Positions 3,991 to 54,043 of a DNA stretch of 64,000 nt are shown one piece after another. Under the pieces are notes generated by a model. It had not been told where the DNA came from. It worked only from the letters and a program-made list of their open reading frames with translations, and did not search any database. How positions within the stretch are numbered: position 1 is the stretch's first letter; each line of letters starts with the position of its first letter. The DNA comes from Malania oleifera (Eukaryota > Streptophyta > Magnoliopsida > Santalales > Ximeniaceae): contig NC_080419.1 of NCBI RefSeq assembly GCF_029873635.1, forward strand, positions 70,041,823-70,105,822, written 5' to 3'. The position numbers and the translations under genes are program-made.

Positions 3991-4214
3991 CTCCTCAAAC
4001 ATCGGGATAAGGAGGGGGCATCTGTCTGCCCAATACTGCTCGATCTCCTCCTCCCTGTCTTCGTCTCTCTCTGCTATCATATTTCCGCCACAGCCTTTGA
4101 CTGGACCCCACCTGAAAATCAGAAGGCACGGGCCTCTTCCTCTGGCTCTGTGCTGCTGCGCCTTTCTATAGGCCGCTCTCAATCACCGCCGGCCTATCCA
4201 CTATCTCTAAGAAG

Positions 4215-4833
4215 GTCTGAGTTCGGAAACCTACCACCTACTCATACGGGTCTGCCTAAAGCCCTCCTCAAACTTCCTTGCCTTCCTCTCCTCATCTAAC
4301 ACCAAATACGGGCCGAATCGGGATAGCTTAACGAGTCTCGCTGCGTACTGCTGCACCGTCAAAGGCCCCTGTGTTAGATACAGAAACTCTGATGCCTTTG
4401 CACTCCTGACCATAGCGGGAAAGTACCGCTGGAAGAAAATCTCCCTGAAGCGGCTCCACATCATCACTACAAGGTTATGCCTATGCTCCTCTAGTAATCT
4501 CACCAACCTCCACCAGAGCTTTGCTTTCCCAGTCAACTTAAATGTGGCAAACAACACCTTCTGCTCGTCTGTACATGAGAGAACTGCCAGTATGTCCTCT
4601 ACGTTTTGAACCCAGTTCTTTGCTACTAGTAGGTCTGCTCCTCCAGCAAAATACGCGGATCGCATATGCGTGAATTGCTCGATCGTGCAGCTCTGCTCCC
4701 CCGAGCTCCTGGCCATCTTAGCCATCACCTGTTGGGTGACACTGTGCAATGCTGCGTCAAGGTCTCCACCACCTATACTAGAAGGTCCTACTCAATTATC
4801 TCTTACATTCGTGTTACTGTTTCCCGGATCCAT
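4215..4833 (-). pseudogene. gypsy gag remnant
   Basis: The frame is a Retrotrans_gag domain: FTHMRSAYFAGGADLLVAKNWV, then the central FATFKLTGKAKLWWRL and FREIFFQRYFP, then the EFLYLTQGPLTVQQYAARLVKLSRF segment. The natural start is the ATG at 4833 (MDPGNSN); an in-frame TGA lies 13 codons later, after which the frame stays open to 4231. Gag forms the virus-like particle. The stop lies where a CGA or CAA codon is expected, in keeping with C-to-T decay. Confidence 0.85.
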
Positions 4834-9167: not shown

Positions 9168-9249
9168 TGATCAACTCATTATATGCTATGCTCATTTGGC
9201 AGCTACTCAGGTGGGACAATTCATGAAGTTGGAAGATGCTTAAGTTTCA

Positions 9250-10296
9250 ATTTGTTGGACGAGGAGAAGATAAGGCAGTGTAATCAATGGGGAAGGAGAG
9301 AATGAAGTGGAATTGGACTTGTGGGTTAATAGGTATTTCTGAAAATGTGACATGTTTGAACTCAGCTTATGTAAAAACGTCTTTTTTTTTTCAACCTATG
9401 ATATGCTATGGTCATTTGGCAGCCACTCAGGTGGGACAATTCATGAAGTCTAAAGAAGCATTTGAAACATCTTCGAGACATGGTGGGATGACAACTGCAG
9501 GGGCAGTTCATTTCCCTCTGTTGCCAAAATTACAAGAAAATGTATGCAACTTCATGTTCTTCTGTTGAATGGCTTGGACAAACTTCTTCTTTTTCCCGCC
9601 CGGGGGGGTGGGGGGGTGGGGGGTTAAACCGTCTGAGCACAGCCTGCATGGCTTCTGTATAGTTGCTGGATTTTGTTCCATGTGTTGGACAACTTGAATC
9701 TTTAGAAGTAATAGTCGAGGTAGTAGTGGTGATAAGCAGTAAAATCTTAATTATGTACAGTTTTTCCAAAACAACTGACTGTAACTAAGATTTTACTTCT
9801 TATCACCACTACTACCTTGACTATTACTTCTAAAGATTCAAGTTGTCCAATATACGGAACAAAATCCAGCAACTATACAGAAGCCATGTAGGCTATGCTC
9901 AGACAGTTTAACCCCCCACCCACCCACCCCCCCCCCCCCCCGGCGGGAAAAAAGAAGAAGTTTGTCCAAGCCATTCAATAGAAGAACATGAAGTTGCACA
10001 CATTTTCTTGCAATTTTGACAACAGAGGGACAGGAACTGCCCCTGCAGTTGTCATCCCACCATGTCTCGAAGATGTTTCGGATACTTCTTCAGACTTCAT
10101 GAATTGTCCCACCTGAGTAGATGCCAAATAACCATAGCATATCATGGGTTGAAAAAAAAAAAAAGATGTTTCTACATAAGCTGAGTTCAAACATGTCACA
10201 TTTTCAAAAATACCTATTAACCCACAAGTCCAATTCCACTTCATTCTCTCCTTCCCCATTGATTACATTGCCTTATCTTCTCCTCGTCCAACAAAT
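9250..10296. repeat. 1-kb near-perfect palindrome (foldback) inside the CACTA element
   Basis: The left arm 9250-9751 and right arm 9785-10296 are inverted copies of about 500 bp, separated by a loop of about 33 bp. Each arm gives the same open reading in opposite directions ([16 protein letters not shown] and CNFMFF at the ends; 9287-9568 plus, 9975-10259 minus), which is a result of the symmetry rather than evidence for a gene. Each arm contains a homopolymer run (G-rich near 9601-9623, C-rich near 9914-9941) of different length. A transcript across it would form a long hairpin. Within the left part, a 45-bp stretch with GGTGGGACAATTCATGAAG occurs at both 9200 and 9420. Confidence 0.9.
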
Positions 10297-10393
10297 GGAA
10301 ATTATTCCACTGTTCTCTGCTATTTATATTCTGAATTTAAGATATGGTTGGCATGTATTACTGTCGTGAATATGCTACATGGTTGCATGCTAG

Positions 10394-17989: not shown

Positions 17990-20900
17990 TCAAAAGCCAA
18001 AAATCTTCGGTGCCAGCCGTAATAGAGGATCCAAGGCACTTGGAGCAAATTTTCTCGCAAAAAGATAACAAACCGAAGAGGAGTGATTATTGTAGAGGCA
18101 GTGGCGACCTTGAAGAAGTCTCTTTAGAAACTCCTCTGTGATATCCGCTTTTCCAAATGTGGCTGGGTGAGCCCCGCCCCTAGACCAGTCAACCCAAGTG
18201 ATGCTTCTATTTGCTAAAGTACTTGCAGCTTGAATGGTTAACATTGTTGGAAAGTAGTGCTCATCCACGTAACATGCTGGTCTGCAGAAGTATTTAAACT
18301 TTGGGTAGAATGTGGTGTCTTCCACTATGTTGATTGCAAGCCTACGATTGATTTCAAACCACTGTGAACCTTTTCGCCACTGGGTAATGTTCACCTCAGG
18401 TGCCATATTCTCATCATAGCGCCCTCTCCCATATGGCCCAGGGTCATCAAATGCTCCAATGAAGCTATACTTGGATCTATTAATGTAGTGGTAGATGAAG
18501 CTGAAATTGTAGATTGGAATGCATGATTCGGAGAGAAGTACAAACCATTCATTGGAAATATCAAGCAATGCATTAGCAAGGAGTCTCCTCTCAGCGTCAC
18601 AAATACTCATCCTCCCCCACTCTGCCACCTGCATAAAAGAACCAAGTAAATAATCAACCACTCGTAAAAACAGTAAATTTACAATTTTTGGACTTTTAAA
18701 ACTTCCAAAATTAGCGTAATAAAAAATCAAAATGTTGCTGAATTTCAAAACTTTAGAAAGAACAACTAATATATAGCTGTGACAGTAGGCCCAGGTGGAT
18801 ATGCATGGACACTGTTGTGCAGAATCATACCATTTCCCTATGCTATGTTTATTTAAATTTTTATTTAGTCTCCATTGTTCATTTGAGAAGGGCAAAAGAG
18901 AAAATCTAAGTAGGAAAATAATCAAAAATGAGAAAGCAACATTTTTAGCACATACATGAGTATTTTACATGGCATGATTTACAATTTTCCCTTCAAGCCA
19001 CTCCACTATTCAGTCTATTCATAGCAGAATTTTGCAGGCATGGAAGACAAAATTCATACAATGAAGATTTCCTCTCCCTCTCTCCCCTTCCCTTGTCATT
19101 TACAACAATGGTGAGGGCAACTTTTAAAAATTGCAACAGTGTTCTGCCTGCTTGACAATTATCTGGCTGCCTGGAAATTTAACTGGAATATACATTCTGA
19201 AAGACCCTTTCAACTGACTATTCTTTGAATGTCGCCAAATAAATAAATAAATAAGAAAGCAGTACACTTGATGAATCTGCGCAATTCCAGAGAATCAGGG
19301 GACTCATAATGAGGAAAGAAGATATGCATACAGAATGAGGACAGCAATTGAAGACAAGGAGGACATGCAGGCTTGAAAATAAAGATGCAATTGAGTAAAG
19401 GTAACAGATTAACTGTGCCAGTTTCATCTTTCTTGACACTGGGGGAAAATTTGTTACCAGAATTTTCAAGAAATGAACCAATTCCTCATTATCCTAGTAA
19501 GGATATGTTTGGGGGAACCCCTTAACAAAGGTTTAAATGCCATAGAACTTGCAATTCTTTTACTCACTGACTAATTCATTCATGAAACATCAGAAAAACA
19601 AACAAAATGATCATATCGTCTGGCAGTGACCAAAAGACCCATAGCAGTTAAATTATAGAATTACTTCTTCAATTCAAGTGCATATACGCATCCTCTCACC
19701 ATCATGGGCGGAGCTATGTTCATCCTAGTGTGGGCAACTGGCCCCACTGGGATGAGAATTTGCTCAAATATACGTATCGTATGCACAAATATTTTTTAAA
19801 TTTTCAAATTTGCCCCCACTACAATTGATATTGTGGAGGTCAACAAACCTAGGTGAGGTCAGCTACATGAATCCTTTTCCGCAAATTTACGGGATCATGG
19901 GCAATTAACTTCTACAATTCAGCGCTATTAAATCTTCATTATCTCATTCCAAGTTATTTTAGGTCAAATTCAGGGCTATTGTGGAGGTCACATTCAAATT
20001 TTTTAAAAGTTTCACGCTTTTTAGATATTTTAAGAAGATTACAGATTCAGTTCAGATTTTTGGATAACATTGGGATAATCCTATGCAAAGATGCAAAGAG
20101 ACAACTATAAAAAATCATTTTCAAAGTTGAAATTTGTAAAAAAAATCAATTGCATAATTGAATGTGATATGATGATGATTTCTTGACTATATACAATGAG
20201 AGATACATATATATTCAAAGATGCTGAAGTGGAGCTACTTTGGGAATAATTTCAAGAAAAATATTCATCAAGGACAATTTTGAGTGATACTTAATTGCTA
20301 TGAAATTTCTATTTAAGTTGTATGTATTTTATTTGAATTTTTGAAGTGAAAATAACTAATATTTATACCTATTTTGAAAAAAAAAATTATCTCAATATTA
20401 ATTTTTTATTTTTTTTACTACTTAAGCATTATGGCTAAATTGATTCCATGATAACATCCAAAAATAGGAAATATTCTCAAACATTTACTATTAAATAAAA
20501 AATATTTAAGATATTGAGTAACTGCCCCCACTCGCCAAAGGTCTTGACTCTGCCAATGCTCACCATGCATGAGCATGTCAAGGGAACTAGAAACTATAAA
20601 GGTTCTGCTTGCTTGTAATATAGAATTGAATGCAGTAGACGTTTCAACTAGTTTCTAGCCAGAAAATTATGATTATTACATTTGATACAGGATATATATA
20701 TATATAAGGCTTAAAAAGAAGATGACAACAGAGTAAAATAATTAAGTAGTTTCTTTTACAAAACTATGAGGATTAAGAGAATGTTGGATGAACGGAGGAA
20801 ACACACTTCAATACCTATATATGAAAGTAGTGGTGATATTCAAAATTGTAATAACTACAATGCTATTAAACTTATGAACCGTATAATGAAATATGAGTTT

Positions 20901-23900: not shown

Positions 23901-24928
23901 AGTATTTACATATTAACATGTCATGATAACAAAAAAATCCCAGTTAAACTGGGGACCTAGGAGCCAGGCTGTACAAACTCTTTTGTCTATTACAGTAGGA
24001 GAAAAGAACTAGGCACTTGCCCTATAAACCAGAGTTTGTTTATTATTGACCACTTGCAACGATGTTGTTCTAATTACTTGTAGAAGACACCAGTTTCAGT
24101 GGTTCCTACCCCAATCATAGGTAAGAAATGACTTGTTCAAGACATATGAAACCACAATCGTCAGGAATTAGCTAGGTGAAGAGTTAAACTAACCCCAATT
24201 ATTTATAGAAAACAAAATCAGTAAATCAGCAACATAATGTAAAAGCACATGCCATTAGACAAATTGATGACCTTAAGGAAATTTAGAAGAATTTAGTGTC
24301 AACTACTATTACTAAGGAAAATTGAACAATAGCCTGTCTACATGCAGATTGCAGAATGGTCACTAAAATGTAGAACTGCAAAGTAATATTAAATAGCTGA
24401 GGACCATACCTGGCTTGGAATCTGTCTACCATAGAAAACCGATGAGGATGGGAATTGAGCATGGAATGATGGCAGCGAATGTACATAAAGCGAATAAAGT
24501 TTTTCATGGCCCTTTAGAAACCTCTCCCAAAGAGGCGCAAGTGGCAGTGGCCCCTTAGTCAAGAACATGAATGCAATCTTCGGGACTCTGCTGAAAGGAT
24601 ACTTCTTTTTTCGTGGCACAAAAGATGCCCTCCAGAAGAGCTCTTGGTCAGTCATCTTATGAAGTAGATTGGATGGAGGCCTGATCCACCACTGTAAACT
24701 GTTCGGCTCTTCGAAACATGGCCGTAAGCTGGGCTGTGCCATGGTTACAACAGTGCGTACTCCAAAATGCGGAATCATGTATATACTAATGATTGAAAAG
24801 GAAATACACAGTACCACAAACAGCACAAACAGCTGAATAATTCTCAGAGGGAAAACCCTAGATTGGTTTGTTCTGCCTGTAACTGTAGACTCCTTAACTT
24901 CCTCCAATGGCATAGTCCTCGACTGCAT
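17990..24928 (-). CDS. Core-2/I-branching (DUF266) glycosyltransferase-like protein, two exons, 385 aa
   Basis: Exon 1 is 24928-24410 (173 codons, ATG at 24928) and exon 2 is 18628-17990 (212 codons plus TGA). The intron opens GTATGG after CCAAGCCAG and closes TATGCAG, in phase 0, joining RQIPSQ to VAEWGRM exactly as the family requires. Residues about 29-52 form one hydrophobic segment (IIQLFVLFVVLCISFSIISI), suggesting a type II Golgi membrane protein. The Branch domain starts at PKIAFMFLTKGPLPL (116-130). It shows CDAERRLLANAL, LLSESCIP (204-211), RKGSQWFEI (258-266), DEHYFPTM and TWVDWSRGGAHP (317-328). The length is normal and the frame intact, so it is probably functional. Family members are presumed glycan-modifying enzymes; the substrate is unknown. 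Confidence 0.93.
19703..20558. mobile_element. Non-autonomous hAT element with 8-bp target duplication
   Basis: The 8-bp sequence CTCACCAT lies immediately left (19695-19702) and right (20559-20566). The ends CATGGGCGGAGCTATG and, as complement, CATTGGCAGAGTCAAG form degenerate terminal inverted repeats resembling the C-A-x-TGGCGGAG ends of plant hAT elements. At 856 bp it has no transposase gene, so it would depend on an enzyme from elsewhere. It lies in the host gene intron. Confidence 0.8.
20865..21980 (+). pseudogene. RTE-type LINE reverse transcriptase relic
   Basis: Fragments in shifting frames match the C-terminal half of plant RTE-like LINE proteins: KLRLETKVS then a gap, NLEKAYVEVL (21002-21031), YRTAITPLHES then SWATKKQHNQK (about 21605-21680), and YLSKDIALEHMEWHKS (about 21912-21960). 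The central RT part with the catalytic residues is mostly deleted. It is antisense to the host gene and lies in its intron. Boundaries are approximate; no target duplication was found. Confidence 0.65.
23629..23772. repeat. 72-bp tandem duplication
   Basis: Two adjacent copies of a 72-bp unit containing TTTTGTTTCTAAAC and CATTAACATTTCCCAAAGAT differ at a few positions. They make an apparent 24-residue repeat in an open frame, which is not a gene. Confidence 0.85.
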
Positions 24929-25355
24929 CTTGATTTAAATAGGAAAAAATAAGATATATCGAAATCACCTCCCAGGTACTATGTTTTCACCAGTATCAAA
25001 TCCAATAACAACCCTACCGCACTGGAAAACTTTGGGATCTGAGTATATGGATAAATTGTTCACCCAGAGTCCTAATTGTATTTTAGAACGCAAATGGCGA
25101 ACTGGGTTGGGTTTTTAACATATGAGTGAGCGAAGACAATACTTCAAGGGATCAGGAGCGATCCCCTCTCCCTAATGTTGAAAAGCAGAGTGCCAAACAG
25201 CTACGTTGACCAATAGAATTGATATAGATTGAGGCGTTAGCATGTGGGAGGCTTGAAAAATCTTCAACAATACAACCCAAGATCGGGCGATTTTGGATCA
25301 ATCGAAGAGAGATAGAGAAAAGCTTGTCAAGCGAAAGGCCGAGTGTGTTCCCATC

Positions 25356-33989: not shown

Positions 33990-34845
33990 CAGCTCATCGT
34001 GGGGTATTCATGCTGAGTAGCTCTTCGTGGGGCATTTGTGCCGAGCTACTCTTCATAGGGCATTCTTGCTATGCTGCTGAGTTGCTCTTCGTGAGCATCC
34101 TTACCAAGCTGTCGAGCTGCTCCTTATGGGAATTATGCTGACTTGTCGAGTTGCTCCTCATAGGCATTCTTGCCAAGCTACCGAGATGATCTTCATGGGC
34201 ATTCTTGTCGAGCTGCTCCTTATGGGAATTCTGCCGAGCTGCCGAGCTACTCCTCATGGGCATTTTTTCCGAGCTGCCGAGCTGCTTCTCATGGTGATTC
34301 TTACTGAGCTACCAAGCTGCTCCTCATTTGGAATTCTTGCCAAACTGCCAAGCTACTCTTCGTGGGCATTCTTGCTGAGCTGCTCTTCGTGGACATTCTT
34401 GTCGAACTGCTCTTCATGGGCATTCTTGCCGAACTGCTCTACATTGACATTCTTGCCAAGGTGCTTTATATAGGCCTTCTTGCCGAGCTGCTCTACATGG
34501 GCATTATTGCCGAGCTGCTCTTTATGTGCATTCTTGCCGAGCTGCTCTACATGGGCATTCTTGTCGAGCTGCTCTTCATAGGCATTCTTGCCGAACTGCT
34601 TTACATGGACATTCTTACTAAGCGGCTCTACATGGGCATTCTTGCCGAGTTTCCAAGCCACTCTTCGTGGGCATTTTTGTCGAGTTGTCCCTCGTGAGGA
34701 ATTCTTCTGAGCTCTCGAGCTGCTCTTCTGGGCGTTTTTTTGCCGAACCACTGAGTTGCCGAGCTACTCTTCTAGTGGCATTTTTTTTCAAGTTGTCCCT
34801 CATAGGAAATTATTCCGAGCTGTCGAGTTGCTCTTCTGGTGGCAT
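33990..34845. repeat. 27-bp tandem array (interrupted at 34845, remnant continues at 42787)
   Basis: A 27-bp unit of the form CATTCTTGCCGAGCTGCTCT plus seven bases is repeated about thirty times, most regularly from 34330 to 34660. Because 27 is a multiple of three, both strands stay open: the plus strand reads MGILAELLY repeats and the minus strand LGKNAHVEQ repeats. A younger LTR element inserted in it with duplication of GGCAT. Confidence 0.85.
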
Positions 34846-37321
34846 TGTGATGACCCAAAAATATATATACGATTAAAGCACAATAATAATAAAATAATAA
34901 AAATGGTCATTAAGTTAATATCAATACAGAAGTATTTTTTCTGTAGGATCCTTGATTCCATGTTTGATGTCTAAGAAAGACCTTGTCTAAGCGAGTGCTC
35001 AGAGACCATTGCGGCTCAGTCGCTCCCTGGAGGTCGGTCTGGTCAAAATGGAATTTTATAGGATAAACAGGATAGACACTGTTTGTACACGTAAATAAGT
35101 ATATATACATAAAATAGTATTTTGACAGACATAATTTGTAGAAATACATAATAAGATGATAATAATATAGGTATCATATGTGGGGCCCACAAGACTATGT
35201 GGGGTCCACATGAGTCTCGGAGTCACAAGACACTATTTATATACGTAAATAAGTACATAAAATAATGTTTTGACTGATATAATTTGTAGAAATATATGAT
35301 AAAATAATAATAATATAGGTATCCTATGCGGGGCCCACAAGACTGTGTGGGGCCCACATGAGCCCTGAAGCCGTATGGAGGTTTACACGAGTCTCAAAGT
35401 TATGTAGGATGCATAAAATCATATGAGAGTTATTCGAGTTACTTAGGATCCATTTGGGTCTCGAAGTTATGTGGGGCCCACAAGATCATGTGGGGTCCAC
35501 ATGAGTTTTCAAAATTCAAATTTAATTCATATTCAAAAAAATAAAATAAAGAAATACTAAAAATAGTTTAAAAGTAATAACAATGATAATAATAATAATG
35601 ATTAAGAAAAATAATGAAATAATAAAATAATTAATTAACTAATTAATTAATTAGGTAAGTAATTAATTAAAAATTTATTTAATGGGAATGGTGGCAAGCA
35701 CTCCCACATGACCTCCATCCCCATCCCATACCTTACCCATCCCTTGTCCATTCTTTAATTTAAAAAAAAAAATTATGATTTCACCCATCTCCCCACACTT
35801 TTATAAATTTCATTTCTTCCCCAAAATTTTCCTATAAATAGGAAGCTCTCAACCTTCATTTTTCACAACAATTTTTCCAAAGAAGAGAAGGATTAGTGAG
35901 TGAAAGAATTTGTGGTGGAGAGAGAATTTTGAGTAAGTTCTCACTCACCCACTCTTTCCGATTTCATTTCTTAAAAATAATTATTGTGTTCGTAGCACGC
36001 GGTAAAAAAGTAAGTAAATTTTGATCATGTTAGTTTTATTTATTTATTTAAAATTCATACTCGAGTTTATTTTATAAGTAAATTTCAATTATGTTAATTA
36101 GTTCCACAAAATTTTCATGAGTTTATTTTTACGCGTATTTAATTATACCAGTTCTATCTTTAATATACTTGCATCTATTTTTCGGTTAAGAAATGTTCTA
36201 ATCCCTTCGGGTAAATTTTCAGCATTTTTTTCTATTCAAAAATAAAATTGTATATATTTTTAACACAAAAATTGTGTGGCATGAGTTTATTTCTACGTTT
36301 CATTTTTTTATGAAAATATGAGTAAAGATGAGATTTTCACGATATTATTTTAAATTGCATAAATTATAATAAGATGATTTTAAAACCCCTTATGGCAACG
36401 AAAGTTCAAAGTTACAGATATTCGGTACCGCAACTTAAAGTTTATACGGATCAGAGTGCACCCACACTGTTTACAGAGTGGTTATTTATGTTAGTGGATT
36501 TCTCCTGAGTGCACACTTGGTTCCGGACCAGGACTTAATAAGGAAAATTTCACTTAAAGTTTACGTACGTTGATTTGGTTTGGTCGGTCAGCCAGCTAAG
36601 TCCAGTCTTCGGACCGCACAACCCAGTCATGGGGGTAAACATGACTTACGACAAACAGACCTAAGGGTGGTTTTTATAATATATGTTTATACATATTTAA
36701 TTACGTGTACAAAGATACTGATGATTTGAAGGAAAAGTGTAAATTTACGTGAAAATGATTATTCTGGTGCTTAAATGACGATCTAAGGAAAAGTATATGT
36801 ATGTTTATCATTAAATATTTTTACAGTTTTAAAGTTAAAAATTTAATTTAACAATTATAGTATAGGATTATAAAAATTTACTGTTGAAATTGATGACAAA
36901 AGTCTTATGCAGAAATTTTTAAATTTATATTTATTCTAAAAGCAGTCATGAAATTATAGTATTAAATATTGTTTTATGAAATTCTTTAAAAGCTCATTTT
37001 GGCCACACACTAATAATAATCTTATTTACTTACTGAGCGTCGTCTCACCCCAATTATATTTTATTTCAGATAACTCTGAAGGACATGTCGGAAATTAGGC
37101 TTAGCAAGCATGCGGGTGGGGATTAGAAAAATAAAGATTGATTAGAAATATTAGTATGGTTTTAGATATTTATGTTTGTATAATTTTTCTTCTTTTGAAA
37201 TAAATGATTGTAATATGGATAATTAGCGCTCTGATTTAATAAAAATTGAGTTTATTTGCTTCCGCTGTAAATCAGTAGTAAAAAGTTAATATCCCAGGCC
37301 CCTCGGGGTTGGGGTGTTACA
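34846..37321 (+). repeat. 5' LTR of the WOX-carrying element
   Basis: The LTR is 2476 bp. CCTATAAATAGG (35830-35841) is a likely core promoter box. ACTGAGCGTCGTCTCACCCC near 37033-37052 followed by a TTTATTTCAG tract is shared with other gypsy LTRs here. GGGGCCCACAAGAC blocks recur near 35181-35480. Confidence 0.95.
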
Positions 37322-37323
37322 TT

Positions 37324-37335
37324 TGGTATCAGAGC
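37324..37335 (+). other. Primer binding site, tRNA-Met(i)
   Basis: TGGTATCAGAGC lies two bases after the 5' LTR end, a perfect match to the complement of the tRNA 3' end. Confidence 0.95.
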
Positions 37336-37360
37336 ATAGATTATAGGTTCCGTAGACTTT

Positions 37361-37394
<34 letters not shown>

Positions 37395-37572
37395 ACGAGA
37401 GCATAGGATATAAGTTCTGCATACTCTAATATATAAATTTTACCAAAGCTTAGATATAAAACATGATTTGGGTAGGATTGGGTAGTTTAGAATATTTATT
37501 TTAGTTTGTTATATTATTATACGTTAATAATAGATTTATGATTTTAAAATAACATTTGATCATTATTTAAGA

Positions 37573-37638
37573 ATGGATCCTAAAGATAGTAGCATTAGAG
37601 GAAATGAGATTTACGTGAAGGCTCCCAAGGACAGGTAA
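37573..37638 (+). CDS. Short leader ORF, 21 codons
   Basis: The ATG opens MDPKDSSIRGNEIYVKAPK and stops after 21 codons. Gypsy gag proteins often begin MDP, so it may be a gag remnant. The stop overlaps a good 5' splice site (ACAG then GTAATA), so it could also be a leader exon. No homology was recognised beyond the first residues. Confidence 0.3.
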   Translation: MDPKDSSIRGNEIYVKAPKDR

Positions 37639-38472
37639 TAATTATAAATTCTCTAAGAAAAATAGTAGTATTATTGAAGACACGTTAATTAATTTAAATA
37701 TGTTATTTATGTTTGTAGAAACACGTACCCATATTGATGATTCATAATTAATTGTCAAATGCATTAATAATTTAAAATTTATATATATATAAATATAATA
37801 ATAATATCTGAGATTTAATTATTTTCACTGTTGTTATTTTCACTAAATGTATAAGAAATAACCTATTAGATCCTACTGAATTTAGAAGTGCTACACATAC
37901 AAATAAATATGAACAAACGGTCTATTATTAAATCTGAATTTACTCAAAATTTCTTTGCATGTATAAGTTGGATATGAATATGTATTTTTACATTACATAT
38001 TTAGTTATCAACAAAACATTCAAGCTTAATTTAGGAATATATAATTTGACAAAATCTTTAATTTTTATTTTGTATTACTATATAAGGAATTGAATATCAT
38101 TTAAATATTACTTATTATATTTAAATTCAAAAAAAAAAAAAAAAATCCCTTAGCATGTGCAAGTTAAATATGTATATCTATTTTTGTTTTTTTTTTCTAT
38201 TGCATATTCAATTTCCATCAAGTATCAAAGTTTGATTTAAGAGTACAAATTTTGACAAAATCTTAAATTTTGTATAAATTTATAAAAGTTAATACAACTT
38301 AAATTTTTCTATAAAAAAAAAAAAAAAAACTTTATATAGTAAAAATTTCATTAATGAAAGCAATATAAAAATTAACTAATTTCCTTCAAATAACTAACCA
38401 ATGTCAAATCATCAATCGGCCAAACATGCCCAACATATATTTGATATAATAATAATAATAATAATAATAATG

Positions 38473-38520
<48 letters not shown>

Positions 38521-38535
38521 GGTACTCTTGCAGTT
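37639..38535 (+). other. AT-rich interior of the WOX-carrying element
   Basis: Contains A runs (38129-38144, 38313-38329), a short (ATA)n at 38446-38470 and a (TA)n run at about 38475-38517. No gene is seen. Confidence 0.6.
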
Positions 38536-38698
38536 AAAAAAAAAAAAAAAAAGGCCTCATGGGTGGAAATCATCGGTTATAGCTCACTTACCCCCGAAGT
38601 AAGGCCAGGGCATGAGACCACTTGGGCGTAGTGGGGACTCGAACCCGTGATCACATGGATGCACGACCGGTTCCTTACCACTAGGCCACCCACCCAAG
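38536..38698 (-). mobile_element. tRNA-derived SINE-like element
   Basis: On the minus strand it begins GGGTGGGTGGCCTAGTGGT. It contains the A box TGGCCTAGTGGT (38688-38677) and, 30 bp on, the B box GGGTTCGAGTCCCC (38646-38633), the split RNA polymerase III promoter. A tRNA-unrelated body of about 80 bp follows and it ends in 17 T (38552-38536). It lacks a folding acceptor stem, so it is not a tRNA gene. A T-tail rather than an A-tail is known for some plant SINEs such as Au. No clear target duplication was found. Confidence 0.7.
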
Positions 38699-38784
38699 TA
38701 GTGACATAAGGATGAAATTAATTATAGTTAAAGCATTAATAAAGATGTAGAAACATAAAAAGAACCTTGAGTTTGCAAATTTTG

Positions 38785-39172
38785 CAATACATGTCACTCG
38801 CTCAATTTCCGCGACACATATCGCTCTCCCTCAATTTTTGAAAAAATGCGTCACTCGAGGCATGCGTCGCTTTCTCTCTCTCTCGATTTTTGTGACACAC
38901 ATCGTTCTCCCTCGATTTTTACAAAACGCGTCGTTTGTGACACTCGTCGCTATCTCGATTTTTGTGACACACATCGTTCTCCCTCGATTTATGCAAAACG
39001 TGTGCTCAATATCCGTGATACGCGTCGCTCTCTCTCGATTCTCACGACACATGTCGTTCTCCCTCGATTTGTGCAAAATGCGTTGCTCGATATCCGTGAC
39101 ACACGTCGCTCTCCCTCGATTCTCGCAGCACACGTCGCTCTCTCTCGATTTCCACAACACGCGGCCACTCTC
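38785..39172 (+). repeat. CpG-rich minisatellite upstream of the WOX ORF
   Basis: About eleven variants of a 25-35 bp unit built on CGTCGCTCTCCCTCGATTT alternate with ACAAAACGCG-type spacers, partly in a higher-order pair of about 80 bp. It ends directly before a TATA box. Its CG content stands out from the AT-rich surroundings. Open frames on both strands across it are repeat artefacts. Confidence 0.8.
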
Positions 39173-39181
39173 CTATAAAAA
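39173..39181 (+). promoter_or_regulatory. TATA box of the captured WOX gene
   Basis: CTATAAAAA lies 119 bp upstream of the ATG at 39300, in the setting CTCTCCTATAAAAAGGG, with a pyrimidine-rich leader after it. This would give the ORF its own RNA polymerase II promoter, separate from the LTR. It is inferred from position and sequence only. Confidence 0.55.
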
Positions 39182-39299
39182 GGGTCTATCCTTCTCAAAC
39201 TCTAAGCATCACAACTTTCTATCATCTTGAACAATCACATTTCGGTTTGCAGTGATTAGCTCTTCCCAACTTGTCTCTTAGTTGTCTCATTACTCGAAA

Positions 39300-39965
39300 A
39301 TGTTGCCAAATCACCCAACTCCCCAAGTTGCTGAGAGCAGCACTAGATCGTCGATTCAAAGATGGAAACCCAGTAAGCCACAGCTGGAGATTCTAGAGGA
39401 GGCCTTCCACAGCAGTCAAGGGGAACTCCCTTCCGTGGAGTGGACTATCTTGCTTGCAGCACAACTCCGACGGTATGGTCCAATCGAGTCGAGAAATATA
39501 CGCTTTTGGTTTGAGAACCGTAGGCGTAGGCGGAGATCAGTTGGAGAAGCCACTATCTCAACTACTGCCCCATCAATTCTCCATATTACCTCCTCCGCCA
39601 CTACCGACCTGAATAGTGCCCCTGCTATTCTTCCAACCCTCTTCCCTATCGAGAATATTCCGACTATGAAACTTACAACTAATATCACACCAATGAGCCA
39701 TATCCCTTACAATGGCAATATTACAGTCACCACACTAAGGATTTCGGATAATGCTGGCCTACTTCACCATTGCAAGGAAATCCGATGTGCATTGAGACTC
39801 ATATACGGGCCACCAATAACTCGGGAAGAGGGCAGCTCTTCCTCCTTCGCCGAACAAATGGGCGTTCTCTCCCTTTTTCCGACCCAAGCTGGTGACATTA
39901 TAAGATGTCAACTCTGCCAAGAAAGAACTCAGGCATTAGCAGTGACACCGCTCGTACTGCGATAG
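39300..39965 (+). CDS. WUSCHEL-related homeobox (WOX) protein, retrotransposon-borne, 221 aa
   Basis: The first ATG is at 39300. An in-frame TTG at 39282 is six codons upstream. Residues about 18-80 are a homeodomain of the enlarged WOX type: RWKPSKPQLEILEEAF (helix 1), SVEWTILLAAQLRRYGPIES (helix 2 and turn) and RNIRFWFENRRRRRR (helix 3). The near-invariant W70, F71, N73 and R74 are present. The residue usually Q before N is E, which is odd. VLSLFPT (189-195) fits the WUS-box pattern of the WUS clade. A second LFP occurs near 114-116. The frame is intact and has no intron, while plant WOX genes normally have introns in or near the homeobox, which suggests capture from spliced mRNA. WOX proteins are nuclear regulators of stem-cell and organ identity. 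Function of this copy is unproven. Confidence 0.75.
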   Translation: MLPNHPTPQVAESSTRSSIQRWKPSKPQLEILEEAFHSSQGELPSVEWTILLAAQLRRYGPIESRNIRFWFENRRRRRRSVGEATISTTAPSILHITSSATTDLNSAPAILPTLFPIENIPTMKLTTNITPMSHIPYNGNITVTTLRISDNAGLLHHCKEIRCALRLIYGPPITREEGSSSSFAEQMGVLSLFPTQAGDIIRCQLCQERTQALAVTPLVLR

Positions 39966-40269
39966 ATGTTGACATTGATCTAAGGCTCTAAAGGCCAGAT
40001 CTCGTATATTTTTAATTTATAGGACATGTATAATATATATACATATATATAATTATCCTTTTCTACATCTTCTGAATTTCTTTTCCATTTCAACCTCTAT
40101 TAGACCGACGATTCACACTTCAATTCCCAAAATAAAATACTTCGCTAAATTGACCCTCAATCTATTCTAAGTCTTAGTCAAATCGTTAATCAATGTACTC
40201 TTTTAAATAGCGCAACCAATTATACAGTACTCATTTTAAATTAGCAAATTTCGAGGACAAAATTTTTAT
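39966..40269 (+). other. 3' flank of the WOX ORF
   Basis: AT-rich, with an AAAATAAAATAC possible polyadenylation signal near 40130. It could be captured 3' UTR or element sequence. Confidence 0.4.
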
Positions 40270-40282
40270 AAGGAGGGGAGAA
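40270..40282 (+). other. Polypurine tract
   Basis: AAGGAGGGGAGAA directly precedes the 3' LTR and would prime second-strand synthesis. Confidence 0.9.
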
Positions 40283-42781
40283 TGTGATGACCCAAAAATA
40301 TATATACGATTAAAGCATAATAATAATAAAATAATAAAAATGGTCATTAAGTTAATATCAATACAGAAGTGTTTTTTCTGTAGGATCCTTGATTCCATGT
40401 TTGATGTCTAAGAAAGACTTTGTCTAAGCGAGTGCTCAGAAACCATTGCGGCTCAGTCGCTCCCTGGAGGTTGGCCTGGTCAAAATGGAATTTTATAGGA
40501 TAAACAGGATAGATACTATTTGTACACGTAAATAAGTATATATATACATAAAATAGTGTTTTGACAGACATAATTTGTAGAAATACATAATAAGATGATA
40601 ATAATATAGGTATCATATGTGGGGCCCACAAGACTATATGGGGTCCACATGAGTCCCGGAGCCACAAGACACTGTTTATATACGTAAATAAGTACATAAA
40701 ATAATGTTTTGACTGATATAATTTGTAGAAATATATGATAAAATAATAATAATATAGGTATCCTGTGCGGGGCCCACAAGACTGTGTGGGGCCCATATGA
40801 GCCCCGAAGCCGTATGAAGGTTTGCACGAGTCTCAAAGCTATGTAGAATGCATAAAATTATATGAGAGTTATTCGAGTTACTTAAGATCTATTTGGGTCT
40901 CGAAGTTGTGTGGGGCCCACAAGACCATGTGGGGCCCACATGAGTTTTCAAAATTTAAATTTAATTCATATTCAAAAAAATAAAATAAAGAAATACTAAA
41001 AATAGTTTAAAAGTAATAACAATGATAATAATAATGATAATAATGATTAATAAAAATAATGAAATAATAAAATAATTAATTAACTAATTGATTAATTAGG
41101 TAAGTAATTAATTAAGAATTTATTTAATGGGAATGGTGGTAAGCACTCCCACATGACCTCCATCTCCATCCCATACCTTACCCATCCCTTGTCCATTCTT
41201 TAATTTAAAAAAAAAAAATTATTATTTCACCCATCTCCTCACACTTTTATAAATTTCATTTCTTCCCCAAAATTTTCCTATAAATAGGAAGCTCTCAACC
41301 TTCATTTTTCACAACAATTTTTCCAAGGAAGAGAAGGATTAGTGAGTGAAAGAATTTGTGGTGGAGAGAGAATTTTGAGTAAGTTCTCACTCACCCACTC
41401 TTTCCGATCTCATTTCTTAAAAATAATTATTGTGTTCGTAGCACGCGGTAAAAAGGTAAGTAAATTTTGATTATGTTAGTTTTTTTTTTTTTATTTAAAA
41501 TTCATACTCTAGTTTATTTTATAAGTAAATTTCAATTATGTTAATTAGTTCCACAAAATTTTCATGAGTTTATTTTTACGCGTATTTAATTATACCAATT
41601 CTATCTTTAATATATTTGCATCTATTTTTGGGTTAAGAAATGTTCTAATCCCATCGGGTAAATTTTCAACATTTCTTTCTATTCAAAAATAAAATTATAT
41701 ATATTTTTAACACAAAAATTGTGTGGCATGAGTTTATTTCTACGTTTCATTTTTTTATGAAAATATGAGTAAAGATGAGATTTTCACGATATTATTTTAA
41801 ATTGCATAAATTATAATAAGATGATTTTAAAACCCCTTATGGCAACGAAAGTTCAAAGTTACAGATGCTCGGTACCGCAGCTTAAAGTTTATACGGATCA
41901 GAGTGCACCCATACTGTTTACAGAGTGGTTATTTATGTTAGTGGATTTCTCCTGAGTGCACACCTGGTTCCGGACCAGAACTTAATAAGGAAAATCTCAC
42001 TTAAAGTTTACGTACGTTGATTTAGTTTGGTCGGCCAGCCAGCTAAGTCCAGTCTTCGGACCGCACAACCCAGTCATGGGGGTAAACATGACTTACGGCA
42101 AACAGACCTAAGGGTGATTTTTATAATATATGTTTATACATATTTAATTACGTGTACAAAGTTACTGATGATTTGAAGGAAAAGTGTAAGTTTACGTGAA
42201 AAGGATTATTCTGGTGCTTAAATGACGATATAAGGAAAACATATAAGGAAAAGTATATGTATGTTTATCATTAAATATTTTTACAGTTTTAAAGTTAAAA
42301 ATTTAATTTAGCAGTTATAGTATAGGATTATAAAAATTTACTGTTGAAATTGATGACAAAAGTCTTATGTAGAAATTTTTAAATTTATATTTATTCTAAA
42401 AGCAGTCTTGAAGTTATAGTATTAAATATTGTTTTACGAAATTCTTTAAAAGCTCATTTTAGTCACACACTAATAATAATCTTATTTACTTACTGAGCGT
42501 CGTCTCACCCCAATCATATTTTATTTCAGATAACTCTGAAGGACATGTCGGAAATCAGGCTTAGCAAGCATGCGGGTGGGGATTAGAAAAATAAAGATTG
42601 ATTAGAAATATTAGTATGGTTTCAGATATTTATGTTTGTGTAATTTTTCTTCTTTTGAAAGAAATGATTGTAATATGGATAATTAGCGCTTTGATTTAAT
42701 AAAAATTGAGTTTATTTGCTTCCGCTGTAAATCAATAGTAAAAAGTTAATATCACAAGCCCCTTGGGGTTGGGGTGTTACA
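40283..42781 (+). repeat. 3' LTR of the WOX-carrying element
   Basis: The LTR is 2499 bp, near-identical to 34846-37321. Differences include a short duplication around 42231-42250 (ATAAGGAAAACAT) and scattered point changes. Confidence 0.95.
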
Positions 42782-42786
42782 GGCAT

Positions 42787-42869
42787 TTTTTTCGAGTTGA
42801 TCTTAGTGGGGCATTCTTGCCGCACTGCCATTCGTGGAGAAATCTTGCCAAACAGCTCTTTTGGTCTCA
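42787..42869. repeat. Remnant of the interrupted 27-bp array
   Basis: After the GGCAT duplication the sequence resumes with CATTCTTGCC units that match the array to the left of the insertion. Confidence 0.65.
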
Positions 42870-43165
42870 TAAGTGTTGCTTGTCAATTGGGCTGATTTTG
42901 CCTAATGAGTTGTGCTCATTTGTTGGGAAGTCTTATGGACTCACGAGAGTTGCTTGTTAGTTGGGCCGATTTTGCCTAATGAGTTGTGCTTATTTGTTGA
43001 GTAGTCTTCTGACCTCACGAGCGTTGCTCATCAATTTGACTAATTTTGCCTAATGAGATGTGCTCATTTTTTGGGTAGTCTTCTGGTCTCACGAGCATTG
43101 TTCGTCAATTGGGCTAATTTTCTTTTATCTAATGAGCTATGCTCATCTTTTGTGCTGAAATCGAG
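42870..43165. repeat. 74-bp tandem array, four copies
   Basis: A unit containing TTGGGCTGATTTTGCCTAAT and GAGTTGTGCTCATTTGTTG repeats at exactly 74-bp intervals (phase points 42877, 42951, 43025, 43099). It belongs to the gag-only element, between gag and the 27-bp array. Confidence 0.85.
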
Positions 43166-44935: not shown

Positions 44936-45351
44936 GAACTAAAAAGTCGGTTAACCATTTTGATTTTTCGGTTTAGTTTCAGTTTGAAATTTTTTATTTT
45001 TTTAGCTATCAGTTCGATTTTGGTTCGGTCCATTCAATAACCATAATTAATCTAATTGAATTGATATACTATAAATATATTTTAAAAATATATATTAAAT
45101 ATAATATTATATAAAATTTCAATAATTGAAATTTTAAAAATGTGTTGATATAATATTCATGCCCATATTTTCATTTTTATGATTTTAAATTTATATGTTG
45201 ATTATTATGAAAGAAAAATATTATTTGTAGTGACTTTAAAATTTTAAATTATGTTTAACAGTTCAGTTTAGTTAACCAATGTATATTAGTTCAAAATTCG
45301 ATAAACCATTGGATACTAGTTCCCATCAAGGTATTCTAAATGAGCATAGAT
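44936..45351 (-). pseudogene. AT-rich flank and possible gypsy RNase H fragment
   Basis: 44941-45250 is AT-rich with GGTTAACC and CGGTTTAG words. At about 45270-45351 the minus strand can be read LEYLDGN, stop, YPMVYRILN, like the start of a gypsy RNase H (the DGxEYPIYYLSRxLN region). It would be continuous with the gypsy RT fragment at 54049 if the 45352-54043 element were removed. The match is short and partly out of frame. Confidence 0.4.
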
Positions 45352-47557
45352 TGTTGACCTTAAAGGTCACGTCCGGTTTTGATAATGACAAATACCTATT
45401 ATATTTAATGCACGTTTGAGGTTGTGTGTAGGTATTCTAATTGGCAGATCATAATGATAGCACAACGAGAGATTGAAGTTGAAGACCTAATTTATGATGT
45501 ATTTAATTTCATTATTATTTAAAGGGTTTGTAATAGTAAATAGGGCTTGACTTGTAATAATTGCATGCATCACCTGCATGATTTAATAGTTAAGCTCAAA
45601 GTAAAATGAACCTAGAAATGACCCTAGGACACTTACTCATGCATTTACATGTTTGGTCATTTGATTAGGGTGTTTGCACAAATTGAAAAGAACTGAAATG
45701 TATGAAAATTACATGTTTGGTCGACCATACTCTCATGTACAAAAAGCTCTTGGTCAACCGAACTAGTGCTGGGTCAACAGATTCACCATAGCCCAGTCGA
45801 CCGAACTTGTCTAGTTCACTTATACCCAGTTGACTGAACTCCCTTGAAGTCAACATAATTGACCTTTTGGTCGACCGTGCCCAAAATGAATAACAACGCC
45901 CTAGTTGACCGAGTTTCCATGTGTGAGAACTCAACGGTCTGGTCGATCGACCAAGATAGTTCAATATGTTCTCGGTCGATCGAACCGCATTAAAAGGGAA
46001 AAATCGCCCTGGACCTCCAAGTCCAGTCGACCGAACTTGTAGTTCATTTAATTCCCAGTCGATCAAACTTTGAGCAACTCGGTCAACCGAACTTGCCACG
46101 GTCAACCGGTGCTCTCGGGTTGCCCCAAAAATTTACTGCGGTTAACATTTTTTTAACGAGGTTAATTTAATTAAATAATATTAAAACTTTTATAATAATT
46201 CCATTTGTGTCCTTAATGGTCATATTTTTGGGGATGTCTATATATACCCCCTCATTTGGAATAATTAGAAAGGGGATTAGCAATCTTAATTAGAAAAAAA
46301 TCCTTTGAAATTCCAAAATCTATAATACTCATTTTTTAGCCTCCAACACTCATTCTTACCAAATTTTTTTGCTCAAATATCTTTGTAAGTGTGATTTGAG
46401 TGTTATTGTTCTATAAGGTTTGCTCTCTCAAGATTGTGCATGTTTGATATTATTTTATTTGAAAGCAAAACCTCAAGTTTTCTTAAGGGATTTCATTGAT
46501 AAGTTTATCCCAAGAAGACTTCACTTGAGCTTCTGAGTATTGCATCGTCATTGCAATATCTTGTGAAGTTTGTATTTGATTTTGGTTGCAAAAATATTTT
46601 CAAATCATTTTCAAATATATACTGTGTTTCATCTTGAGAAATCTTTGAAGAGATATTTGTTTATGTGGTAAAAATCTTTGTTGCAATATTCATTAAGTAA
46701 TATCATTTGTTGAATACAAAGATTAAAACCTCTTGCAAATATATATATCTTGAGCTTTTTACATTGAGAAAGTCTGCTGTTTGAGATATATATATATATC
46801 TTGAGCTTTTTACATTGAGAAAATCTGTTGTTTGAGATATATGAAATTTGACTGATATCTTTGTTTAAGCATTTAGATTGAATATATATTTTATGATACA
46901 AAGATCATATTGGTTGCACTCTCACACACTAACTACAACGATTGCAAATATATTTGAGAGTAGACATCTAAAACCACATTGAGCTTACTTCATTAAATCT
47001 TTTGGTGGTGTATATAATTGCACGTATTGGGTAAAAATCTACTTTACATGAAAGCATAATCATTGTACCATTTGATTGAGCAAAACTTTTGTATTCCAGG
47101 CATGGGCCTGAAGAGGGAGACTAGTCTTGGTAAAATAGTCTTGGATTGGCTTAGACCCTGTTAGGAAAGGTAAGTGCGCCATCCTGTCAAGGCGTGTTGG
47201 TTGAGGTCAGTCCCTTGAGTTGACTTGGTTGTAAACGGTGCCTCTCCACCCGTTAAGTGAGCTTATAGTGCAATCCTTGTGCTGGTGTAGCCAAGGCGGG
47301 GAGAAAGGCATAGTTTGCCGAACCCCGATAACATATTGTATGTCTATTTATATTTCCGCACTTTATATTTACCTCACGTGTATGTTATGATGTGAATGAT
47401 GCACATGATTTAAATTTCTACATATTATATTATCTGCACATTTGGGATTGTATAAAAAGACCTTAGGTTACCAAATCACATTGACTTCTGACTTAATCTA
47501 GGAGAAAAGTTTAAAATTTGAATTCACCCCACTCTTGGGAATATTCCAAAGCTAATA
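45352..47557 (+). repeat. 5' LTR of the LARD-like element
   Basis: 45720-46120 carries about fifteen GGTCGACCGAACT-like words. Near 46736-46850 a 60-bp piece (ATCTTGAGCTTTTTACATTG) is duplicated compared with the other LTR. Open frames on the minus strand (45665-46105) come from these repeats and are not genes. Confidence 0.9.
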
Positions 47558-51700: not shown

Positions 51701-51916
51701 TTTTTTTTCCAAAACATATAATGTATAAAAATGATGTTTACCCATTGCCTAGAGCTATTATTTTTATGGCCTTTTTTGCTATTACCAAAAGGGGGAGATG
51801 AAGAGGCAAAAATATTGGGTTAAATTATTTTATTTAATGCATATTTTTAGGGGGGGCTTTTTATGGCTAAGCCCATATTTTTTCTTGATGTAGAACATCA
51901 TCAAAAAGGGGGAGAA
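48709..51916 (+). other. Non-coding interior of the LARD-like element
   Basis: No pol fragment is found. 50070-50345 matches 10380-10635 in the CACTA element. Two GGGGGAGCAT stretches (49870, 50759) resemble polypurine tracts, suggesting internal rearrangement. The end is the true purine tract at 51903-51916. Confidence 0.6.
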
Positions 51917-53239
51917 TGTTGACCTTATAGGTCACGCTTGGTTTTGATAATGAAAAATACCTATTATATTTAATACACGTTTGAGGTTATGTGCAGGTAT
52001 TCTAATTGGCAGATCATAATGATAGTACAAAGAGAGATTGAAGTTGAAGACCCAATTTATGATGTATTTAATTTCATTATTATTTAAAGGGCCTGTAGTA
52101 ATAAATAGGGCTTGACTTGTAATAGTTGCATGCATCACCTGCATAATTTAATATGTAAGCTCAAACTAAAAAGAACCTAGAAATGACCTTAGGACACTCA
52201 CTCATGCATTTACATGTTTGGTCATTTGATTAGGGTGTTCACCCAAATTGAAAAGAATTGAAATGTATGAAAATTACATGTTCGTTCGACCGTACTCCAA
52301 TGTACAAAAAGCTCCCAGTCGACTGAACCGGTGCTAAGTCAATAGATTCACCATAGCCCAATCGACTGAACTCCCTTGGAGTCAACATAATTGACCTCTT
52401 GGTCGACCGAGTTCCCACGTATGAGAACTCAACGGTCTGGTTGACCAACCGAGATAGTTCAAAATGTTCCCGGTCGACTGAACCGCGCTAAAAGGGAAAA
52501 ATTGCCCTGGACCTCCAAGTCCGGTTGATCGAACTTGTAGTTCATTTAATTCCCGGTCGACTGGTCTTCGAGCATTTCGGTTAGCCGAACTTGCCACGGT
52601 CGACCGGTGCTCTCGGTTTGCCTTAAAAATTTAACGCGGTTAACATTTTTTTAATGGGTTGATTTAATTAAAAAATATTAAAACTTTTATAATAATTCCA
52701 TTTGTGTCTTTAATGGTCATATTTTTGGGGATGTCTATATATATACCCCCTCATTTGGAATAATTAGCAAGGGGATTAGCAATCTTAATTAGAAAAAAAA
52801 TCCTTTGAAATTCCAAAATCTATAATACTCATTTTTGAGCCTCCAACACTCATTCTTACCAGATTTTTTGCTCAAATATCTTTGTAAGTGCGATTTGAGT
52901 GTTATTGTTCCATAAGTTTTGCTCTCTCAAGATTGTGCATGTTTGATATTATTTTATTTGAGAGAAAAACCTCAAGTGTTCTTAAGGGATTTCATTGATA
53001 AGTCTATCCTAAGAAGACTTCACTTGAGCTTCTAAGTATTGCATCGTCATTGCAATATCATGTGAAATTTGTATTTGATTTTGGTTACAAAAATCTTTTC
53101 AAATCATTATCAAATATATAGTGCGTTTCATCTTGAGAAATCTTTGAAGAGATATTTATTTATGTGGCAAAAATCTTTGTTGCAATATTCATTAAGTAAT
53201 ATCATTTGTTGAATACAAAGATTAAAACCTCTTGCAAAC

Positions 53240-53294
<55 letters not shown>

Positions 53295-54043
53295 TGAGCT
53301 TTATACACTGAGAAAATCTGCTGTTTGAGATATATGAAATTTGACTAATATCTTTGTTTGAGCATTTAGATTGAATATATATTTTGTGATGCAAAGATCA
53401 TATTGGTTGCACTCTCATGCACTAACTACAACGATTGCAAATATATTTGAGAGTAGACATCTAAAACCACATTGAGCTTACTTCATTATATCTTTTGGTG
53501 GTGTATGTGATTCACATATTGGGTACAAATCTGCTTTACATGAAAGCATAATCACTATACCATTTGATTGAGCAAATCTGTTGTATTCTAGGCATGGGCC
53601 TGAAGAGGGAGACTACCTTGGTAAAATAGTCCCAGATTGGCTTAAACCCAATTAGGAAAGTTAGGTGCGTCATCTTGTCAAGGCATGTTGGTTGAGGTCA
53701 GCCCTGTAATTGACCTGATTGTAAATGGTGCTGCTCTACCCGTTAAGTGAGCTTATAATGTAATCTTTGTGCTGGTGTAGGCAAGGTGGGGACGTAGGTA
53801 CAGTTGGCTGAACCCCAATAACATATCGTGTGTCTATTTATATTGCACTTTATATTATTGCACATGTATGTTGATGTGAATGATGCACATGATTTAAATT
53901 TCTGCATCTTATATTATTTGCACATTTGGGATTGTATAGAAAACCCTAGGTTACCAAATCACATTGACTTTTGACTTAACCTAGGAGAAAAGTTTAAAAT
54001 TCCAATTCACCCCCCCCCTCTTGGGAATACACCAAAGCTAACA
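51917..54043 (+). repeat. 3' LTR of the LARD-like element
   Basis: Pairs with 45352-47557. It differs by a shorter GGTCGACCGA block (52280-52610), a long (AT)n run at 53243-53292 and a C-run near 54010-54018. Confidence 0.9.

Follow-up and report, generated by a model that had tools for sequence, protein, structure and literature searches.

We analysed a stretch of 64,000 nucleotides of the genome of Malania oleifera, a tree of the Ximeniaceae in the Santalales (contig NC_080419.1, positions 70,041,823 to 70,105,822; hereafter the window, with positions counted from its first base) that carries a long terminal repeat (LTR) retrotransposon whose one protein frame of note encodes a WUSCHEL-type homeobox (WOX) protein. 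The element, at 34846-42781, is structurally complete, with LTRs of the TG...CA form, a target-site duplication (TSD), a primer-binding site (PBS) and a polypurine tract (PPT) (Table 1). A first-pass annotation of this DNA had named an exact TSD, a primer site and a purine tract, together with an interior free of gag and pol, and all of these agree with what we found. GGCAT is present without mismatch at both ends of the element, and the insertion flanks, once joined, rebuild an unbroken unit of a local minisatellite. Minisatellites, with units of 27 bp and 74 bp as well as others, lie on either side of the insertion (33991-34839 and 42857-43121), and the element sits within one. The two LTRs had been called near-identical, which overstates their likeness at about 96-97%: blastn aligns them at 95.9% identity over 2499 columns, and 2395 of 2476 ungapped sites are identical, with a Kimura two-parameter distance (K2P) of 0.034.

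Apart from the WOX frame, the interior contains no sense frame of at least 80 codons that starts with ATG, save two overlapping ones over a CpG-rich minisatellite, and no gag-pol frame was found there. With no gag-pol of its own, the element is non-autonomous. An Rfam scan of the whole window and a tRNA scan of the element gave no matches.

Table 1. Features of the window copy, followed by related loci elsewhere in the genome (prefixed C).
Feature	Position	Strand	Remark
5' TSD	34841..34845	.	GGCAT
5' LTR	34846..37321	+	TGTGATGACC...GTGTTACA
TAAT/ATTA cluster 5' of LTR TATA box	35575..35690	+	dense; partly (TAAT)n repeat
LTR TATA box, putative LTR promoter	35833..35842	+	TATAAATAGG; read from sequence
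Interior	37322-40282		one protein frame of note
PBS	37324..37335	+	TGGTATCAGAGC; presumably initiator tRNA-Met type
CpG-rich minisatellite 5' of gene	38794..39164	+	
Second TATA box, putative internal WOX promoter	39174..39181	+	TATAAAAA
Putative intron, GT...AG	39184..39281	+	98 nt; precisely missing from L019 and L023
WOX-type homeobox frame	39300..39965	+	221 codons; 230 in 52 of 59 other copies
Homeodomain, residues 20-79	39357..39536	+	Pfam and solved-structure matches
WUS-box-like motif	39864..39884	+	VLSLFPT
DNA for EAR-like end of other copies	39965..39991	+	DVDVDLRL or close; out of frame in window copy
PPT	40270..40282	+	AAGGAGGGGAGAA; read from sequence
3' LTR	40283..42781	+	
3' TSD	42782..42786	.	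GGCAT
WOX-element array	C7:96280977/96286743		
WOX-element array	C6:84607053/84612642		
WOX-element array	C4:124242635/124248334		
WOX-element array	C1:68237773/68243402/68249037		
WOX-element array	C2:65969332/65974666/65979997		
WUS copies L069-L075, L077	C1:43737669; C1:44656760, 44660152, 44663546, 44682649, 44686027; C13:48345872; C435:36139		

The WOX protein, its putative promoters and its probable donor

The translated frame matches the Pfam homeodomain family PF00046 (E 9.2e-9), and its best solved-structure matches are STENOFOLIA (STF; 5.2e-10, aligned over residues 20-86) and WUSCHEL (WUS; 1.5e-9, residues 19-80), both colinear through helix 3. The WOX identity proposed in the first-pass annotation for residues 18-80 is thus borne out. 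A predicted structure of the window protein, built from a two-row alignment, had a mean predicted local distance difference test (pLDDT) score of 34 and was not used.

The frame was read in 59 other loci (L009-L068 without L030). These came from candidates ordered by how closely their protein resembles that of the window, and open frames may therefore be over-represented among them. In 52 of these loci, 230 codons precede the first stop, with 27, 206, 221, 227, 229, 232 and 263 codons in the remainder. The window copy shifts frame at about residue 213, losing the C-terminal tail common in the family, and L025 ends likewise. The 221-codon frame, earlier described as intact, is thus that of a slightly damaged family member. 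Elsewhere in the family, an xLSLFxx motif is found in 56 of the 59 copies and a C-terminal (D/N)L(R/K)L in 54, with the full DVDVDLRL in 44 of those. Known WUS-clade proteins carry a WUS-box, with the consensus TLxLFPxx, and a C-terminal EAR motif. Set beside these known motifs, the family form resembles a WUS-type repressor of small size, and its product, with a homeodomain, a WUS-box-like motif and an EAR-like tail, would most likely be a DNA-binding repressor. The element motif, read earlier as WUS-box-like, resembles the consensus without matching it exactly. Because the EAR tail is absent from the window copy's frame, we call the protein WUS-like and not a member of the WUS clade.

Two putative promoters were read from the sequence. 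The TATA box of the LTR was sought downstream of the open reading frame (ORF) in 20 copies and found in 14. A second TATA box, TATAAAAA, precedes the ATG by about 125 bases in the window, and 20 of 21 copies (the window and L009-L028, with L009 as the exception) have it 5' of the ORF. It is followed by a putative intron. Two copies, L019 and L023, are missing exactly the bases of this intron, as would be expected if the element RNA had been spliced and then reverse-transcribed. Across the genome, two sites have the joined form with 0-1 mismatch and two more have it with 2 mismatches, so such losses are rare, and both may stem from one event. The acceptor reads GG instead of AG in nine of the copies listed.

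Upstream of the LTR TATA box, 23 TAAT/ATTA cores fall within 110 bp, a density matched by none of 500 shuffles of either order, and 21-28 cores lie within the 300 bp upstream in the 14 copies where the TATA box was found. Tandem Repeats Finder reports a TAAT repeat at 35612-35670, overlapping the cluster. Over the whole LTR, TAAT is not enriched (79 against 73-79 expected), nor is the WUS motif TTAATSS (2 against 2.7-2.8 expected). Since the stretch is partly (TAAT)n and neither motif is enriched, putative WOX binding of the cluster is a lead only. It is conceivable, if rather unlikely, that the WUS-like protein binds this TAAT-rich stretch at its own LTR promoter, steering expression to shoot stem cells or enlarging their pool, and that copies thus enter the germ line. 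If true, this would be a selfish element that exploits a stem-cell factor and is maintained by element-level selection.

Malania also has host WOX genes, including WUS (L069) with tandem copies and other WOX homeodomains, which we take to resemble WOX1/STF, WOX3, WOX4, WOX5, WOX9 (two), WOX11 and WOX13. The element homeodomains form one clade with 100/100 support, whose branch is 1.44 changes per column long. Over the homeodomain, three element sequences share 35-41% identity with Malania WUS, and after WF the element homeodomain has a glutamate where host WOX proteins have a glutamine. In pairwise scores, the top match of the element homeodomains is Malania or Arabidopsis WUS, with WOX1-like or STF just behind. 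We conclude that the putative donor was a WUS-like gene, and it may have come from a foreign species. In the element the frame is a single exon, and several host WOX pieces meet stops beside the homeodomain.

Among the host genes, Malania WUS also seems to have homeodomain copies in tandem some 0.9 Mb away, with a spacing of about 3.38-3.39 kb within two groups; several of these copies have in-frame stops beside or in the homeodomain. Another host WOX-type homeodomain, L082 (C2:15438760-15439173), has a long branch and could not be placed in any of the usual groups.

Copies in the genome and their probable mobilisation

The first-pass annotation had proposed a check for further copies within the same LTRs, and these proved to be numerous. 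In the 1.494 Gb searched, a 26-base DNA pattern from helix 3, allowing up to 3 mismatches, occurs at 524 sites, and its reversed control at none. A protein search of the genome with the window protein gave 983 candidates, of which 150 were scored, all with an E of 2.2e-115 or better, and a piece of the non-coding 5' interior gave 723 candidates, of which 40 were scored. In a search of 5.8 billion proteins, we found one relative, the NCBI gene model LOC131144967 of M. oleifera itself, and a profile search of the same number of proteins with seven copies and the window protein returned nothing beyond protein P0001. Used as a query against the genome, P0001 gave 2318 candidates, and the 150 scored show 73-99% identity, many with stops; these P0001-type copies are a second, older subfamily. 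The lists of 983 and 2318 candidates were kept unmerged. The published Malania assembly is described, in the accessible part of its report, as 1.5 Gb in 13 pseudo-chromosomes (PMC10199050).

Twenty copies (L009-L028) were fetched at 9.8 kb each. Window-type LTRs stand on both sides in 17 of them, including two whose 3' LTR is broken (L012 and L019); L018 has an LTR upstream only, and L024 and L026 have one downstream only. An exact 5-bp TSD bounds nine copies (L011, L013, L016, L017, L020, L022, L025, L027 and L028), while L010 and L021 match at four of five bases, L009 is mismatched and eight are unreadable. The PBS is exact in 13 copies, altered in L012, L017 and L021 and unread in four. The WOX element is thus a family of hundreds of dispersed copies and not a one-off capture. 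The objection that the frame might lie at its ancestral locus between unrelated LTRs did not hold, given the 524 sites and the shared LTRs. Nor do we see any realistic prospect that a host WOX family was flanked by unrelated LTRs by chance or spread by segmental duplication: some copies do lie in local tandem arrays, but this account is already refuted by TSD-bounded copies within the same LTRs at independent, dispersed sites, and the host has WOX genes of its own, which resemble WUS much more closely (best host E 1.5e-31 in a genome search with WUS, against 2.6e-10 for the best element copy).

Across the 15 readable copies of the 20, LTR divergence (K2P) ranges from 0.0014 to 0.054; L012, with only 105 bases of broken LTR, was left out. 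The lowest values are those of L015 (0.0014), L013 (0.0035) and L020 (0.0036). L015 contains the start of a tandem array, and its two LTRs may therefore not date an insertion. At 1.3e-8 substitutions per site and year, which may overstate the pace in a tree, insertion ages come to about 0.05 to 2 million years, with the window copy at about 1.3 million. The element also forms local arrays with a spacing of about 5.3-5.8 kb, as tandems of LTR-interior-LTR-interior would.

A 30-base motif of the PPT module, at up to 2 mismatches, occurs at 3645 sites genome-wide, with none for the control. Ten of 100 listed exact PPT sites were fetched, and upstream of eight of them (all but L090 and L094) we noted, by eye, frames resembling the ends of Ty3 integrases. 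All four PPT-adjacent frames that were tested in Pfam encode a Ty3 integrase or its SH3 domain, one matching Integrase_H2C2 and three SH3_Tf2-1. The lineage that shares the PPT would be that of the Ty3/gypsy chromoviruses (Tekay/Del type). Since this priming module is common to the WOX element and to Ty3 elements, mobilisation in trans is naturally inferred. At L090, a WOX-element LTR lies upstream of the PPT, with almost no interior between LTR and tract.

Possible selection on the frame and rival explanations

Selection was examined on 636-base pieces of the ORF, 57 of them distinct (64 were retained and identical ones merged, with L024, L025 and L068 dropped for indels and L030 for truncation). 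Nonsynonymous (N) and synonymous (S) variants were compared as an omega-like ratio, with 1.00 as the value expected from changes of the same kinds. Singletons (N114/S46) stand at 1.00 and variants in 2-4 copies (N69/S32) at 1.05, and those in at least five copies (N36/S31) fall to 0.53 (P 0.007). Finer classes of change leave this last value at 0.52-0.55 (P 0.006-0.009), and in frames +1 and +2 these variants yield 1.35 and 1.58. Variants in at least 10 copies (n=25) give 0.56-0.58 (P 0.11-0.12). On the tree, internal branches (N81/S64, no stops) have a ratio of 0.62 (P 0.003) and terminal branches (N256/S143, six stops) one of 0.88 (P 0.11). Across 21 copies, gaps are also rarer in the ORF than in any of the other six regions compared (a fraction of 0.0025, against 0.0068-0.121), a figure subject to the same sampling bias as the open frames. 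This pattern lends moderate support, short of proof, to selection in the source lineages and a nearly neutral decay thereafter.

We put at roughly 0.8 the probability that the window copy belongs to a high-copy, non-autonomous Ty3-type LTR family whose sole recognisable gene is a captured, single-exon WUS-like WOX gene, copied in trans. The capture proposed in the first-pass annotation is supported by the significant homeodomain match, the many copies within the same LTRs and the TSDs at independent sites. A chromodomain-containing Ty3-type element may have acquired a WOX mRNA by template switching during reverse transcription and then lost its gag-pol, and copying since would have relied on gag-pol supplied in trans by intact relatives with the same PPT. 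The benefit most likely goes to the element itself, and there is partial evidence that lineages keeping the WOX protein spread better. WUS-type proteins set the size of the plant stem-cell pool, and germ cells come from those pools. The element might gain, for example, by being expressed in the stem cells that give rise to germ cells or by prolonging their pool.

Several results weigh against this reading or parts of it. A gag-pol helper with the same LTRs was sought through the shared PPT, and none of the ten sites fetched has a WOX-element LTR downstream. The homeodomain tree leaves the donor WOX unplaced, with seven of 13 inner branches drawn open and many WOX forks unresolved. Variants in at least 15 copies (n=15) appear unconstrained, at 1.1. 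Pairwise maximum-likelihood omega between the old-type copies L089 or L087 and four window-subfamily copies each ranges from 0.48 to 0.99, and only one of the eight usable deep pairs reached a 2dlnL of 3.9, the others lying at 0-2.9; the L084 rows, at one codon each, were left out. The mean p-distance of the ORF, 0.064, is no lower than the 0.051-0.064 of three of four internal non-coding regions, with 0.114 in the minisatellite stretch and 0.064 and 0.073 in LTR pieces. Finally, choosing copies for their protein likeness to the window may have enriched the sample in open frames free of gaps. The comparison of synonymous and nonsynonymous change suggested by the first-pass annotation thus points to constraint in shared variants and internal branches but not in most deep pairs.

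Such results leave some room, though clearly less than an even chance, for a passive passenger, a WOX gene captured once and carried without function, its open frames reflecting youth. The seven deep pairs with omega not significantly below 1, an ORF divergence equal to that of non-coding parts and the many older-subfamily copies with stops would all be expected of it. A passenger does not readily explain why singletons are neutral but shared variants constrained, and in the true frame only, why internal branches hold no stop beside 145 classed changes, or why the C-terminal (D/N)L(R/K)L tail has been retained so widely.

It is doubtful, too, that the copies descend by internal deletion from an autonomous gag-pol element with WOX as an additional ORF. 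A helper whose ends match is required, whether extant or lost, but in all 17 two-LTR copies the interior is the same short one, about 3 kb long (the remaining three of the 20 lack one LTR and are not closed). The one long frame found, of 1069 codons at C8:90178040, seemed to join WOX to a polyprotein and was rejected, as it runs into, and mostly is, a stretch of N. We give very little credence to service of the copies to the host as a domesticated regulator. The one related gene model at NCBI would fit such a role, but hundreds of similar copies, with terminal branches not significantly off neutral, are unlike a fixed host gene.

A captured regulator of this kind raises a testable question, namely whether a retrotransposon can profit from encoding a developmental regulator of the tissue that it must reach. 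Its copies provide hundreds of natural replicates for the evolution of a captured transcription factor. In more practical terms, anyone who counts WOX genes or WOX-like transcripts in Malania may be counting mobile copies as well.

Elsewhere in the window, a gene for a Core-2/I-branching enzyme (PF02485) lies on the minus strand in two coding stretches (17993-18964 and 24392-24934), about 10 kb from the element. On the minus strand at 3387-4791 are the remnants of a further LTR element, with Retrotrans_gag and RVP_2. Direct repeats of about 2.1-2.2 kb and about 90% identity (45348-47555 and 51913-54041) are probably the LTRs of another, older element. A foldback-like stretch of about 1.06 kb (9241-10304) is self-complementary, with 91% identity to its own reverse complement.

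Relation to known systems

Host-gene capture by LTR elements is already known as a kind, and the comparisons below draw on the accessible portions of the papers cited. Bs1 of maize carries segments of three enzyme genes, none full-length (PMC13317346). Like the Malania element, it is an LTR element with host coding sequence; unlike Bs1, the Malania element has a single transcription-factor frame that extends from homeodomain to C-terminal motif and is present in hundreds of copies. Closer in some respects are the NLR retroduplicates of pepper, about 72% of which lie in elements without gag or pol and which are reported to be under purifying selection (PMC5664825). Here, too, a gene family has been multiplied in LTR elements lacking gag-pol, with help in trans inferred, but the pepper cargo is a set of NLR immune genes, whereas in Malania one element family carries one cargo, a developmental homeobox gene.

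Extra domains retained across rounds of copying are also seen in an AlkB RNA-demethylase ORF of orchid Ty3/gypsy elements and in a B3 DNA-binding domain of LTR elements of Aegilops tauschii (PMC9289625). B3 is likewise a plant transcription-factor domain; in Malania, unlike these cases, the cargo is a WOX-type homeodomain protein, and gag-pol is gone. Similarly, the additional ORFs of plant LTR retrotransposons come on top of gag-pol (PMC7264820), whereas the extra ORF of the Malania element stands alone; the words homeobox and homeodomain are absent from the main text of that review. Within the open-licence literature (most subscription papers lie outside it), the accessible portions of the sources consulted contain no WOX cargo in an LTR element (PMC13317346, PMC7264820, PMC5664825, PMC9289625, PMC3726574, PMC10199050, PMC5501002). 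Searches of 5.8 billion proteins likewise gave no WOX case except the Malania gene model.

Within these bounds, the Malania element is the first LTR element found with a WUS-like regulator as its sole recognisable gene, in hundreds of copies and with signs of selection. Its protein shares with host WUS and WOX1/STF a homeodomain with the W, F, N and R of helix 3. The VLSLFPT of the element is WUS-box-like, and the tail of its family form is EAR-like. Unlike the host WUS-clade genes, the WOX gene of the element is mobile, multicopy and set on a long branch.

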